NCBI RefSeq assembly: GCF_014695975.1
Contig: NZ_JACJPI010000083.1
Location: 124,001 to 188,000 of the forward strand
Direction of reading: 5' to 3'
Source of the DNA: Leptolyngbya sp. FACHB-321
Lineage (GTDB): Bacteria > Cyanobacteriota > Cyanobacteriia > Leptolyngbyales > Leptolyngbyaceae
Length of the DNA stretch: 64,000 nt
The notes below the pieces were generated by a model. That model was not told where the DNA came from, made no database searches, and saw nothing but the letters and a program-made list of their open reading frames with translations. A program made the position numbers and the translations under genes. How positions within the stretch are numbered: position 1 is the first letter of the stretch; the number at the start of each line of letters is the position of its first letter. This document shows, one piece after another, positions 18,783-25,969 of this stretch.

Positions 18783-21700
18783 ATGGATAGAACAACTGTG
18801 AATCACGATCAGAATCAGGGAACGGGTGTGTACGCTGGTCAGCCTTGGTTGGTAGAAGAGCGCGATGCCTGCGGTGTAGGGTTTATTGCCGATCAGCAGG
18901 GGCGTGTCAGTCACGCATTGATCGAAAAAGCGCTGGCAGCACTCACCTGCCTGGAGCATCGAGGGGGCTGTAGCGCTGATCAGGACTCTGGGGACGGTGC
19001 TGGTTTGATGACGGCTCTTCCTTGGGATTTGTTGCAGCAATGGCTCGCGGATGAAGGCATTCAAGCTGCTACACCTGCCCAGATTGGAGTGGGAATGGTC
19101 TTTTTGCCAGCGAAGGTAGAGGCAGCCGCGAGTGCCCGCCAGGTTATGGAGCGGATTGCCGTTGAAGAAGGCTTAACCGTTTTGGGGTGGCGAGTTGTGC
19201 CAACGCTGCCTGAGCTTTTGGGTAAGCAAGCGCGTGAGAACTTGCCTCAAATTGAGCAGGTTTTGGTGCAGTCTGAGCAGCAAGGTGAGGCACTGGAGCG
19301 GCAGCTTTATCTCACCCGTAAACGTGTTAATAATGCCATTCGGGCAGAAATAACTGTTTCTGCGCTGCAAACTACGTTTGATGACTTCTATTTCTGTTCG
19401 TTTTCAAGCCGCACAATCGTCTACAAAGGCATGGTGCGATCGGCAGTGTTGGGTGATTTTTACACTGATCTGAAGAACCCAGCGTACAAGAGTACTTTTG
19501 CGGTCTACCATCGTCGCTTCAGTACAAACACGCTACCGCGCTGGCCTCTCGCACAACCGATGCGGTTACTGGGTCACAATGGCGAAATCAATACGCTGCT
19601 GGGTAACGTTAACTGGATGGTAGCGCGGGATGCAGATCTGGCTCACTCCTGCTGGGGCGATCGGATTGCCGACCTGAAGCCTACCGTGAATCTTGACAAC
19701 AGCGATTCTGCTAACCTAGACAACGTTTTTGAGCTCCTGGTGTGGTCGGGTCGCAGTCCGCAAGAGGCACTAATGATCATGGTGCCAGAGGCATATAAAA
19801 ACCAGCCAGATCTAGTCAACTATCCTGAAATTACGGACTTCTACGAATACTACAGCGGTATTCAGGAACCCTGGGATGGTCCTGCGTTGCTGGTGTTTAG
19901 TGACGGTAAGGTCGTAGGTGCGACGCTCGATCGCAATGGCTTACGTCCTGCTCGCTACAGCATCACACGCGACGGCTATATTGTGGTTGCCTCTGAAGCA
20001 GGAGTCGTGGATCTGCCCGAGGCGGACATTATTGAGAAAGGTCGTCTAGGTCCGGGCCAGATGATCGCGGTCGATCTGGAGACGCACGAGATTCAAAAAA
20101 ACTGGGAAATCAAGCAACGGGTTGCCAGCGCAAAGCCTTACGGTGAGTGGCTCAAGCAAAACCGCTACGACCTTAAGCATGAGCCATTTGCCGAGAATGT
20201 GCCTTACATTCCTACTGGAAACCTGCTGCGCTATCAGACTGCCTTTGGCTACACGGCAGAAGACGTAGAGATGATCATCCAGGAAATGGGCGCACAGGGC
20301 AAAGAGCCAACCTTCTGCATGGGTGACGATGTACCACTGGCAGTGCTATCTGCCAAACCACGCTTGCTGTACGACTACTTTAAGCAGCGCTTTGCTCAGG
20401 TAACGAATCCGCCGATCGACCCTCTGCGTGAAAAGCTGGTCATGTCGCTGGCAATTCAACTAGGCGAACGAGGCAATCTGCTTGAAGCGGGTGCGAAGTA
20501 CGCCCATTTGCTCAAGCTAGAGTCCCCTGTCCTAAGTGATGCAGAGCTGGATCAGATTCGCCAATCTGGATTTGAAACTGCCGAGCTTTCGACGCTGTTT
20601 GAACTTTCGCAAGGACCCGATGGCCTACAGCGTGCGGTGACAGCACTTTGCCAGAAAGCCGCAGAAGCCGTTCGCACAGGTAAGAAAATCTTGATCTTGA
20701 GCGATCGCGCCGTTCAACCTGGTAGCCCCAGCCTGAGCGAGGATTACACCTATATTCCGCCACTACTGGCGATCGGGGCAGTACATCATCACCTGATTCG
20801 TCAGGGCTTGCGGATGAAAGCCTCGCTGATTGCGGATACTGCTCAGTGCTGGAGTACGCACCATTTTGCGTGCCTGATTGGCTATGGCGCGAGCGGCGTT
20901 TGTCCCTACTTGGCGCTAGAAACGGTTCGCCAGTGGTGGACTGACCCTAAAACCCAGAGCTTTATGGAACGGGGCAAGCTGAAGGCGATTACTCTGTCTG
21001 CGGCTCAAGGCAATTACCGCAAGGCGATCGAAGAGGGGCTACTCAAAATCCTGTCAAAGATGGGTATTTCGCTACTGTCGAGCTACCACGGTGCCCAAAT
21101 TTTTGAGGCGATCGGCATTGGTGGTGACTTGTTGCATCTAGGCTTTGCGGGTACAGCTTCACGGTTGGGCGGCTTGAGCATAGCTGATCTGGCGCAGGAA
21201 GTGGTTTCGTTTCATCAGCGTGCGTTTCCAGAGCTGCATATTAAGAAGCTGGAAAACTATGGCTTCGTCAACTATCGTCCTGGCGGTGAATATCACATGA
21301 ACAGCCCGGAAATGGCGAAGCATCTGCACAAAGCTGTGGCAGACAAGAGCTATGACCACTACACGCTGTACAAAAAATACCTGGACGATCGTCCTCTGAC
21401 GGCGTTGCGCGATTTGCTAGATGTGAAAAGCGATCGCCCCTCCATTCCTTTAGACGAGGTGGAACCTGCCAGTGCGATCGTCCAGCGCTTCTGCACGGGC
21501 GGTATGTCGTTAGGAGCCTTGTCACGCGAGGCACACGAAACGCTGGCGATCGCTATGAACCGTATTGGCGGCAAATCTAACTCTGGTGAAGGGGGCGAAG
21601 ATCCGACTCGGTTCCTGGCTCTCGACGATGTGGATGAGAAGGGGCTTTCGCCGCAGTTTCCTCACCTGAAAGGATTGCGGAATGGTGATACCGCTAATTC

Positions 21701-23441
21701 TGCTATTAAGCAGGTCGCTTCCGGTCGCTTTGGGGTGACGCCAGAGTATCTCATGAGCGCCAAACAGCTTGAAATCAAAATGGCGCAAGGCGCGAAGCCA
21801 GGAGAAGGGGGGCAGCTCCCTGGACCTAAGGTGAGTCCATATATTGCGATGTTGCGTCGATCGAAACCGGGTGTCACGTTGATTTCCCCACCTCCGCATC
21901 ACGACATTTACTCGATTGAAGATCTGGCTCAGTTGATCTTTGACCTGCATCAAATTAATCCTGAAGCGCAGGTTTCAGTCAAGCTGGTCGCAGAAGTCGG
22001 CATCGGCACGATTGCGGCAGGCGTGGCAAAGGCAAATGCCGACATCATCCAGGTTTCGGGTCACGATGGCGGTACGGGTGCCTCGCCGTTAAGTTCCATC
22101 AAACATGCGGGTAGTCCGTGGGAACTGGGATTAACAGAGGTGCATCGGGTGTTAATGCAAAACCAACTGCGCGATCGCGTTGTGCTACGGGTTGATGGTG
22201 GCATCAAAACAGGCTGGGATGTGCTGATGGCAGCGCTGATGGGTGGTGAAGAGTTTGGCTTTGGCTCCATTGCGATGATTGCGGAAGGCTGCATTATGGC
22301 GCGGATCTGCCACACCAACGCCTGCCCGGTGGGGGTTGCCAGCCAGCGTGAAGATCTACGCAAGCGATTCCCTGGGATGCCGGAACAGGTGGTCAATTTC
22401 TTCCTCTTTATTGCCGAAGAAGCCCGATCGCTGCTAGCAAAGCTGGGTTATCGCTCCCTGCATGACATTATTGGTCGCGCTGACTTGCTGAAGGTGCGAG
22501 AGGGTGTAACAATCCCCAAAACCCACAGACTCAATCTCGATTGCCTGACGCAACTGCCTGATACTCGGGACGACCGCACCTGGCTAACTCACGAAACTGT
22601 CCACAGCAATGGTTCTGTTCTGGATGACCAACTGTTGAGTGAGCCAGACATTCAAGCTGCGATCGCCAACCAGACCAGCGTGACTAAAGACCTGGAAGTA
22701 GTGAATACGGATCGGACGATCGGCGCACGCATTGCAGGGGCGATCGCACGTCAATACGGCAACAGCGGTTTTGGCGGACATCTTACGCTCAACTTCAAAG
22801 GCAGCGTGGGTCAAAGCTTTGGAGCTTTCAACCTTCCTGGTATCACGCTCAATTTAGAAGGCGAAGCAAACGACTATGTGGGCAAAGGCTTGCATGGTGG
22901 CGACATAGTGATCGTGCCACCTGCGGCTGCAACCTATAACCCCTCCGACAACGTCATTATCGGCAATACCTGTCTATATGGTGCAACGGGCGGAACGCTT
23001 CTAGCGTATGGTCAGGCAGGTGAGCGCTTTGCTGTGCGTAACTCTAAGGCGCAGGCGGTCGTTGAAGGTGCTGGGGATCACTGCTGCGAATACATGACGG
23101 GCGGCGTAATTGTCGTACTGGGCAACACTGGGCGCAATGTGGGTGCAGGGATGACAGGCGGCTTGGCGTACTTCCTGGATGAAGACGGCAGCTTCCCCAC
23201 CAAAGTCAATCCAGAAATTGTGAAAGTCCAGCGGGTGATCACGCCTGCCGGAGAGCAACAGTTGAGAGAGTTGATTGGGTTGTATGCCGATCGCACCGGC
23301 AGCCAAAAAGCTAAAACTATCTTGGCGAACTGGTCTGAGTACTTGCCTAAGTTCTGGCAGCTTGTGCCACCGTCTGAAAAAGACTCACCCGAAGCTAACC
23401 CCGAAGCTGCAACTGAAAAAGTGCTAACCCCCGTCCAGTAA
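18783..23441 (+). CDS. gltS: Ferredoxin-dependent glutamate synthase
   Basis: Fd-GOGAT makes two glutamates from glutamine and 2-oxoglutarate with electrons from reduced ferredoxin. It is the second step of ammonium assimilation. The 1552 residues comprise a class II amidotransferase domain, a central domain, an FMN-binding synthase barrel ([20 protein letters not shown]) and a C-terminal beta-helix. The catalytic Cys30 (RDACGVGF) would be exposed by removing a 29-residue propeptide. The 3Fe-4S ligands are Cys1170, Cys1176 and Cys1181 ([12 protein letters not shown]). The insertion [20 protein letters not shown] (about 942-970 region) matches the 'Fd loop' that separates the ferredoxin type from NADPH enzymes. 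It is monocistronic, with its own terminator. Confidence 0.97.
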
Positions 23442-23466: not shown

Positions 23467-23516
23467 AATCACCAGTAGAGTCGGTTATGCTTCGCAAGCT
23501 TACTCTACTGGTGATT
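23467..23516 (+). terminator. Terminator of the glutamate synthase gene
   Basis: A perfect 15-bp stem, AATCACCAGTAGAGT (23467-23481) with ACTCTACTGGTGATT (23502-23516), has a 20-nt loop that can itself fold. It starts 26 bp after the stop codon. The following ATTGTATTT is T-rich but not a clean run. Confidence 0.75.
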
Positions 23517-23525
23517 ATTGTATTT

Positions 23526-23731
23526 AACGTGAGTTCGGGATAAGGAATCGCTAGAAGCTCTGATTTTCTGCGGCTTGCCACCACGCTCTCGGTCAAGTTC
23601 TTGTCAATAAGTCTCACAGTTGCAAATACTTGCAGTAGCAGGTCTTATTGAGAAAGGGTGACTGGCTGGCTACTTAACTCAAGCTATTCATAGTAGGGGT
23701 TTTAGCCTTCGGCTTAACCCGAACTCACGTT
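23526..23731. mobile_element. MITE-like element with terminal inverted repeats
   Basis: A 206-bp stretch bounded by perfect 14-bp inverted repeats, AACGTGAGTTCGGG at 23526-23539 and CCCGAACTCACGTT at 23718-23731. With one mismatch they extend to about 19 bp (…TAAG). It contains no coding frame but has an inner inverted repeat (TCAATAAG…CTTATTGA). No clear target-site duplication was seen. It is probably a non-autonomous relative of an IS present elsewhere in the genome. Confidence 0.65.
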
Positions 23732-23747
23732 ATTTATGGAGAAGCTC

Positions 23748-23942
23748 ATGGCTCTGACATAGAGCTTGAACAAGATTATGGATGCTGGATTGCAGAAGTA
23801 ACTGACTCGTCAGGCGTTCTTGCTCATGGATCAAGCGGTGAAGACTCACTAATACGAGTCAAAGCTTTAGCGCTTCGGTTTTAGCTAACCGTCTTAAACA
23901 TGGTGAAAGCGCAGCAGAGTTTAGTCATGTAGTGGCTCTGAC
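23748..23942 (+). pseudogene. HicB-family antitoxin-like gene, frameshifted
   Basis: Translation from 23759 reads IELEQDYGCWIAEVTDSSGV and then LAHGSSGEDSLIRVKALALR, which matches the small HicB/UPF0150-like family (D-G-x-W-I-A-E-V, G-V-x-A-x-G, A-L-x-x-V-x-A-L-A-L-R). The frame stops at TAG 23882-23884. Shifting by one base restores LANRLKHGESAAEF from 23881. The ATG at 23748 (MALT) is out of frame by one further base. Two single-base deletions therefore broke it. No hicA toxin gene follows. It lies just beyond the MITE-like element. Confidence 0.7.
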
Positions 23943-24029
23943 CACTCGCCCCTCACTACGAACTACTGTTTTCAAAGGTGCGATCGATTCAAAAAGATCG
24001 ATCGACCGCGCCTCATTCTGGGCTGGAAT

Positions 24030-25787
24030 TTATGCGTTGATAATTGCTCGTTCCTGGTAAAGCTGCACAATGCGATCGACCACTTCGGCAATACTAAGAT
24101 TGTCCGTTTGGATCTCGATCGCATCCTCTGCTTGACGTAGGGGAGCCAGCGCACGGGTGCTGTCTTTAAGATCGCGATCGTAAATTGCCTGCTCTAGTTC
24201 ATCCAGGCTAATGATGTCCTTGCCCTGATTTTTCAAATCTTGCTGCCGTCGGCGCGCCCGTTCTTGCACTGAAGCCGTCAAGAAAAGCTTGAGTTCTGCG
24301 TCAGGAAAGACATACGTGCCAATATCGCGACCATCGATGACAATGCCGCCGTTTTTGCCATAGCGACGCTGTTGACGCACCAATTCGTTGCGGACAATTG
24401 GCTGCGCGGCGATCGCAGAGACCTTTGATGTAACCTCCAGGCTCCGAATCGCCTGCGTCACATCCTGACCATTAACCGAGACGTTGATGGCTCTAGATTG
24501 CTTCTCTATGGGCGTTAGCTGAGCATCAAGCTCAATCTCACACTGGCTAGCCAATTCTGCAATGCTGGGCTCATCGTCAATAGCAACCCCAGACTCTAAC
24601 ACCAGCCAGGTCAACGCACGATACATTGCCCCTGTGTCCAAATACAGCAGATCGAGCCTTTGGGCGACCTGGCGAGAAACAGTCGATTTGCCAGCACCAG
24701 CGGGACCATCGATCGCCACAATCGGCTTACGGCTTGACAAAAGCATATTGTCAATCAGGCGAGTCGAACCAAGGCGACCCGCGATTGCCAGTAAGCCACT
24801 TTCCTCAATCATCTCTAAAGGCTCCAACGTTGATGGATGAACTAATTCGATATACTCTGGCACGATCGCCGTTACAGGTTCCAGTATTGCTTGCACTGTC
24901 TTAAGCAATGCCTCGACAGATCGTTCGCCTGCCCGAAACGCTTGTTCAGCCTGACTCAGCCCACGGTAAAGCGCTGCCGCCTGTGCTTTCTGCTCTGGGG
25001 TCAAATACTGATTCCGCGAACTGTACGCTAGCCCACTCGGTTCACGCACAATGGGGCAGCCGACGATCGCCACGGGCAAATTCAAGTCCTCAACGAGCCG
25101 CCGAATAATTGTCAACTGTTGCGCGTCTTTCTGCCCAAAATACGCTCGCTGTGGTTGCACAATATTAAGCAGTTTCGTCACGATCGTTGCTACGCCTTGA
25201 AAGTGCCCTACCCGCGATCGACCACATAGAACAGACAGCATTGCTTCAGGCGGCACCACTTGAGTGGGTGAGGAGTAAGGAGTGAGGAGTAAGGGGGAAG
25301 CGTTTTGAGCGTTAAGTTGTGGGTGTTGTGTAGTCTTCGGTATTTCAGAAGCGCGAGACGTTCCCGAAGGGAATCTTTTGTGTTCTAGCTCCCGACTCTC
25401 AACTCCCGACTCCCGACTCCCGACTCCCATCTCCCCTGCACTTGGCGCAAAAATCACATCTACCCCAGCTTGCTCACACAATGCCTGATCTTGTTCCAGC
25501 GTCCGAGGATACTGCTGAAAATCTTCAGTCGGTCCGAACTGAAGTGGATTGACAAAAATACTTACTACAACCAGTTGATTCTCTTGCCGTGCCTTCTGGA
25601 TCAAGCTCAAATGTCCTACATGAAGTGATCCCATTGTCGGTACTAACCCGATCGAAACACCTGCTGCGGAAATTGGTTCACCGATGACCGAGGGGTCGAC
25701 ATTTGTGCGATCGGAGGAGAGATGTTGACCGGAGCGATAGCGGTTGAGATAGCAACGCAAGCCAGCAACGGTTTTAAACAAACGCAC
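24030..25787 (-). CDS. panC/cmk: Bifunctional pantoate--beta-alanine ligase / cytidylate kinase, with an inserted repeat
   Basis: This is a fusion typical of cyanobacteria. The N-terminal half, pantothenate synthetase, has GLVPTMGSLHVGHLSLI, VSIFVNPLQFGPTEDFQQYP and AYFGQKDAQQL. The C-terminal half, CMP kinase, has IDGPAGAGKSTVSRQVA (P-loop), LDTGAMYRALTW and VIDGRDIGTYVFPDA. I place the start at GTG 25787 (VRLFKTVAGLRCYL), which matches relatives and follows GGGGG; ATG 25844 would add 19 unlike residues. DNA 25266-25427 encodes about 54 extra residues rich in Ser/Glu/Pro (GSRESGVESRELE... and PLLLTPYSSPT) between GEM and QVVPPEAM. They come from heptad-repeat DNA. Another short insertion lies before GLVPTMG. 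The frame stays open. Confidence 0.93.
   Translation of the reverse strand: MRLFKTVAGLRCYLNRYRSGQHLSSDRTNVDPSVIGEPISAAGVSIGLVPTMGSLHVGHLSLIQKARQENQLVVVSIFVNPLQFGPTEDFQQYPRTLEQDQALCEQAGVDVIFAPSAGEMGVGSRESGVESRELEHKRFPSGTSRASEIPKTTQHPQLNAQNASPLLLTPYSSPTQVVPPEAMLSVLCGRSRVGHFQGVATIVTKLLNIVQPQRAYFGQKDAQQLTIIRRLVEDLNLPVAIVGCPIVREPSGLAYSSRNQYLTPEQKAQAAALYRGLSQAEQAFRAGERSVEALLKTVQAILEPVTAIVPEYIELVHPSTLEPLEMIEESGLLAIAGRLGSTRLIDNMLLSSRKPIVAIDGPAGAGKSTVSRQVAQRLDLLYLDTGAMYRALTWLVLESGVAIDDEPSIAELASQCEIELDAQLTPIEKQSRAINVSVNGQDVTQAIRSLEVTSKVSAIAAQPIVRNELVRQQRRYGKNGGIVIDGRDIGTYVFPDAELKLFLTASVQERARRRQQDLKNQGKDIISLDELEQAIYDRDLKDSTRALAPLRQAEDAIEIQTDNLSIAEVVDRIVQLYQERAIINA
25261..25440. repeat. Heptad (STRR-type) repeats inside panC
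   Basis: At 25268-25296 the plus strand reads a GTGAGGA/GTAAGGA heptad four times. At 25390-25433 it reads CTCCCGA-type heptads (ACTCCCG) about six times. The two blocks flank a unique stretch of about 90 bp. Such units are usually intergenic in cyanobacteria. Here both are translated in frame in panC. Confidence 0.8.
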
Positions 25788-25969
25788 CGTAACCCCCAAA
25801 AATGACTGATATTTGGTTGAGAAAGCAAACGCCTCACACCCCAAAGCTGACCACTGTTAAGCCTATCAACAAGACTGCTGCGGCTGCTACTCAAAATAGT
25901 AGTTAACGCCCCTGTCTCTTTTGATGAAGAACGTTAGGATGTCGTCTGTAAGCACGTTCTCACACAGTT

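Follow-up and report, generated by a model that had tools for sequence, protein, structure and literature searches.

A 204-bp non-autonomous MITE, mobilised by an IS982-family transposase, very probably lies here beside a relic of a hicB gene whose decay most likely preceded the insertion. The DNA analysed (the window) is a 64 kb stretch of contig C82, from a genome of 6.7 Mb in 91 contigs. We propose that the element would have been moved in trans by a resident IS982-family transposase recognising the ends common to both, and that it would have inserted at TATTTA between the terminator of a glutamate synthase gene (gltB) and hicB; the locus would formerly have held hicB-hicA, from which hicA would have been lost, with hicB degenerating as well, most likely ahead of the MITE insertion. 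The mobilisation by the IS982 transposase and the order of events are the parts of this explanation that we infer. The case represents an ordinary kind of event, in that a MITE of the known IS982-type class came to lie beside an ordinary toxin-antitoxin relic. What it offers is a cyanobacterial MITE family that was active recently and has a clear IS982 partner of matched target type, together with a reminder that a toxin-antitoxin gene found dead next to a MITE was not necessarily killed by it.

Genomic Context

The upstream neighbour of the element (18783-23441, + strand; ORF of 1552 aa) is a glutamate synthase gene which we take to be gltB and whose 3' end was matched in all six other genomes of the genus. 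It is followed by a hairpin (23467-23516, + strand) with a perfect 15-bp stem and a 20-nt loop, a probable gltB terminator that was not called by the terminator scan because the latter permits loops of 3-8 nt only. The initial annotation had placed a repeat element directly behind the glutamate synthase terminator, and the hairpin was indeed found there, with the element beginning at 23527. On the downstream side lies a convergent gene (24030-25844, - strand), presumably a panC-cmk fusion, which was delineated by its ORF and by matches in relatives. Among named records, its protein comes closest to one from the cyanobacterium Tildeniella nuda (best segment 77 % identical); this comparison may omit entries from the genome itself or from very close ones.

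A Recently Active MITE Family

The perfect 14-bp terminal inverted repeats AACGTGAGTTCGGG that had been reported to bound a segment of 206 bp (23526-23731) are present as described, and their arms reach 20 nt at 95 % identity. The end pattern (up to three mismatches) occurs twice in the window, as compared to 0.24 occurrences expected by chance. According to the target duplications and to aligned copies and their flanks, the element proper is slightly shorter and spans 23527-23730 (204 bp, + strand, non-coding), with a left terminal inverted repeat at 23527-23544 (+ strand) and a right one at 23713-23730 (- strand) that resemble the IS982-type left end ACCTGAGTTCGGGATAAG and right end ACGTCAGTTCGGGTTAAG, respectively. 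It is framed by target duplications of TATTTA at 23521-23526 and 23731-23736 (both + strand), identified from the sequence and from aligned flanks. With its 204 bp the element is too short for a transposase gene; only one listed ORF (of at least 40 aa) touches it, which has 56 aa and extends into the flank. A promoter search within the MITE returned one weak sigma-70-like match (0.9 expected).

The proposed search of the same genome for further copies proved productive: a full or nearly full MITE was found at 13 places, i. e., the window copy and 12 others, which divide into eight young and five old copies, and eight additional short matches concern the ends. Seven of the young copies are mutually identical, while the window copy differs from them at a single one of 204 sites; the insertion at the window locus is recent. 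All six young copies for which both flanks are available (the other two lie at contig ends) show perfect target duplications of 6-7 bp, namely TATTTA, TAATTA, TATTGTA, TACGTA, TAAACCA, and TAAGTG. The four old copies with recognisable ends retain 170-180 identical sites, and none of them has a perfect target duplication, with the copy on C22 agreeing by eye at six of seven positions; the fifth old copy (C48) has degenerate ends and was excluded from this count.

Matches to the MITE were obtained in 10 of 39 genomes searched, its own genome included. In six of these ten the match was confined to an end (22-28 bases) and in another (G013) to two short pieces, while a whole or nearly whole MITE was present in G022 (85 %) and G007 (75 %), both from other genera of the family. 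A search of 72,556 plasmid records gave no match to the MITE at E 1e-5. One of the young copies (C61; L007 1501-1707) lies between two ORFs that, judged by eye, resemble the halves of a phage-type integrase, a gene that it may have interrupted.

The IS982-Family Partner

With at most one mismatch, the end pattern was found at 59 places in the genome, as compared to one for a reversed control. The left end ACCTGAGTTCGGGATAAG occurs at 16 contig ends and once inside contig C6, the right end ACGTCAGTTCGGGTTAAG at 14 contig ends, and a few further end matches outside the MITE are located on C64 and C73. No differences were seen among the 16 left ends of this insertion sequence (IS) over 100 bases, nor among the 14 right ends over 108. 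Encoded in the right end is the C-terminus (33 residues) of an IS982-type transposase, which shows 88 % identity to a G020 protein that passes the NCBIfam cut-off for IS982 (NF033520, 1.5e-73). The suggested search of the same genome for an autonomous IS with the ends of the MITE thus yielded IS982-type ends at 16 + 14 contig ends, where the transposase seen comprises only the C-terminal 33 residues. An interior of an IS with MITE-like ends was not found in the assembly, whose contigs end inside it. Assembly breaks within this IS account for 30 contig ends, the start of C82 included, and, as expected, such breaks would fit a repeat of about 15 copies. In practice, the present results are of use for annotation as well as for explaining contig breaks.

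Left and right IS flanks can be paired by identical stretches of 6-8 bp, which gave a partner for 13 of the 16 left and 11 of the 14 right ends. One-to-one pairs number 11 at most, some pairings being ambiguous as several sites share TAGCTA or TATCTA, and four control offsets, which were not matched for the TA that starts most target sites, gave 0, 0, 1, and 1. The target duplications of the IS (6-8 bp) and of the MITE (6-7 bp) are alike in type: TA...TA was observed in nine of ten distinct IS sequences and in four of six for the MITE, the two others being TAAACCA and TAAGTG. Beyond this, MITE and IS match at their ends alone (18 bp at the left end, about 27 bp at the right), with one differing position on either side. 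As the ends are the same and the target type is similar, mobilisation by this IS would offer the best explanation, and a transposase of this family probably moved the MITE.

Three longer IS982 relatives reside in the same genome. Two of them look broken: that on C6 has one matching end and an internal stop, and that on C31 likewise has an internal stop. The third (C33; L140 326-1204) preserves an IS982-type transposase frame without a stop across the 294 residues aligned. Matching ends beside the C31 or C33 relatives were not found at up to one mismatch. A derivation of the MITE interior from the IS was considered and rejected, since a blastn comparison of the MITE with the IS on C6 and with two contig-end pieces, one of either side, matched the ends only (interior E of at least 1.5).

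An Empty Insertion Site

For one MITE copy, that on C37, there is a clear empty site in relatives. This copy is nested in a second dispersed repeat (about 180 bp), which occurs frequently in related genomes and of which five copies were fetched from there (L276, L277, L278, L279, and L280). In three of the five (L276, L278, and L280), the left and right flanks meet at a single TACGCA, whereas the MITE on C37 is framed there by two copies of TACGTA. With a right-hand match that begins further on, L277 and L279 are uninformative at the insertion point. No empty site was obtained for the copy on C69, the two sides of which lie at different places in relatives, nor for the window locus, where G003 aligns within hicB only. 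Taken together, the further copies, the target duplications, the IS982 partner, and the empty site of one copy bear out the initial description of the repeat as a MITE-like element.

The hicB Remnant

Immediately behind the MITE follows a possible ribosome-binding site, GGAG (23738-23741, + strand), and a hicB pseudogene with two frameshifts (23748-23942, + strand; 3' limit approximate), which was recognised by its match to the intact HicB of G003. From the ATG at 23748 the frame runs into a stop at 23760 and homology resumes at 23759 in another frame; the second frameshift is near 23876-23882. Against the G003 protein, the pieces in the two frames reach 71 % identity (41 residues) and 46 % (24 residues), which confirms the reported HicB-like gene with two frame breaks. 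In a genome-wide comparison at E 0.001 the remnant was the only match (E 2.8e-10), and no other copy of the same hicB was detected. None of its fragments reached a cut-off in Pfam or NCBIfam. A motif that reads LPGVL(A/V)YG in four intact relatives has become SSGVLAHG. Near both ends of the remnant (23749-23758 and 23933-23942) there is a 10-bp direct repeat, TGGCTCTGAC, which could be due to chance.

That no hicA follows was likewise upheld: no match to hicA was found in the window at E 0.01, and the best low-stringency match within 23601-24400 (E 0.60, 32 % identity) lies inside the cmk ORF. The comparison with the syntenic locus of relatives, which had been suggested as a check, showed that G003 retains an intact hicB together with hicA (PF07927, 7.1e-12). 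The pair is flanked by gltB and panC-cmk, gene order and orientation agree with those of the window, and further ORFs separate gltB from hicB. As the G003 HicB itself stays below the Pfam cut-offs (HicB_lk_antitox 18.5 vs 27), the family name rests on its position beside hicA. The window remnant thus occupies the position of the intact G003 hicB, but with its two frameshifts it has no intact hicB ORF, nor is there an adjacent hicA, and it does not constitute a working HicBA module. The proposed reading as a dead hicBA remnant is supported by the intact hicBA at the same place in G003.

The arrangement of gltB and panC-cmk around this locus was seen in two of seven genomes of the genus; in the other five, which are drafts, the two genes are on different contigs and may yet be adjacent. 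Among named relatives, no hicBA was found beside panC-cmk at E 0.01 in 24 cyanobacterial loci (L146-L169) of 80 fetched. One of the ORFs between gltB and hicBA in G003 (L145 2989-3528) weakly resembles a nucleoside deoxyribosyltransferase (3.5e-6, short of the Pfam cut-off by a small margin); the corresponding gap in the window holds the hairpin and the MITE only, with no deoxyribosyltransferase-like counterpart.

Order of Events

The dating rests on a comparison of divergence. Over 40 codons, the hicB remnant shows 15.8 nonsynonymous differences to G003 and 16.5 to G001 (per 90-95 sites), as compared to 6.5 between G003 and G001. To G006 and G005 the values are 21.2 and 19.8, and those between either of these two and G003 or G001 range from 8.5 to 13.5 on the same scale. 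By hand calculation, the excess in the remnant thus amounts to about 9-10 per 90 sites in both comparisons, versus one in 204 for the MITE. Given only 40 codons, synonymous sites near saturation, and mixed dN/dS values, this comparison yields a probability and not a proof: of the four dN/dS comparisons with the window hicB, one is not finite, one is 0.31, and two (0.14-0.15) are close to the 0.04-0.11 of those three intact pairs for which the value is finite. Since hicB has decayed far and the MITE has hardly changed, the decay of hicB is most likely older than the insertion.

The converse order, in which the MITE inactivated hicBA and both the frameshifts and the loss of hicA came later, would be in keeping with the position of the element directly upstream of the hicB ribosome-binding site, where it would part the gene from any upstream promoter. 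We regard this order as very unlikely, as a single private change in the 204 bp of the MITE contrasts with two frameshifts and many residue changes in hicB and with the loss of hicA. Furthermore, before the insertion only 10 bases (four plus the target TATTTA) separated the gltB hairpin from the insertion point, so that the insertion would have detached only a small part of a hicB promoter. The suggestion that the gene was possibly cut off by the element is not supported: both GGAG and ATG lie downstream of the MITE, no hicB codon is interrupted, and the missing hicA would belong on the far side of hicB. Alternatively, hicB might be intact and its frameshifts mere sequencing errors, one of the two adjoining a run of four T; however, single-base errors can explain neither the absence of hicA nor the altered residues at conserved positions, which makes this reading extremely improbable. 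Prior decay of hicB, followed by insertion of the MITE, is the preferred sequence of events.

Structure and Possible Function of the MITE Interior

The whole MITE folds as a long hairpin and does so better than shuffled sequences (z -4.3 and -4.0 on the two strands), which might suggest a functional RNA or regulatory hairpin in place of a plain transposable element. The fold is due to the terminal repeats, however, as z is only -1.1 after their removal. In an alignment of nine copies (seven of the 13 in this genome plus two from relatives) the covariation term is unfavourable (+0.48, with five of 55 pairs changed on both sides), and Rfam gave no match up to E 1. A conserved RNA structure, which was considered as a candidate, is hence unsupported by the alignment, by Rfam, and by the fold without terminal repeats, and a functional RNA appears very improbable as compared to the plain mobile element that we favour. 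Unrelated to the IS982 partner, the interior can also be recognised in members of two further genera of this family. It seems quite improbable, though slightly less so, that it is kept for some use to the element or host, for example, shaping transcription beside terminators, as opposed to neutral filler.

Comparison with Known Elements

A published precedent for an IS982-type MITE is MITECca01 of Cardinium cOegib (PMC9769881). It is described as an element of about 240 bp without a transposase that is mostly intergenic and whose ends are very like those of the resident IS982-family ISCca4, its parent IS, intact copies of which are held responsible for its mobility (PMC9769881). The two differ in host, in copy number, with 169 copies of MITECca01 in Cardinium versus 13 of the MITE described here, and in that MITECca01 retains a short parent stretch beside its left end, whereas the window MITE matches the IS only at the terminal 18-27 bp (PMC9769881). 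Nezha of Anabaena, one of several cyanobacterial MITEs, is reportedly likewise a short non-autonomous element (PMC10969869), the likeness considered here being one of size, lack of autonomy, and host group. No IS982 MITE besides MITECca01 was recognised among the matches listed from open-licence literature (mostly titles, abstracts, and text).

Further Repeats

The second dispersed repeat, in which the C37 copy is nested (L005 1366-1503 and 1707-1745), is partly palindromic (TAGGATGTGT...ACACATCCTAC); judged by an 11-base motif, the window contains no clear copy of it. On C64 (L132, 40464-40651), two right-type ends that are 170 bp apart point the same way. On C73 (L133, 30582-30703), a shorter element (about 122 bp) combines similar ends with a different interior and is perhaps another MITE.
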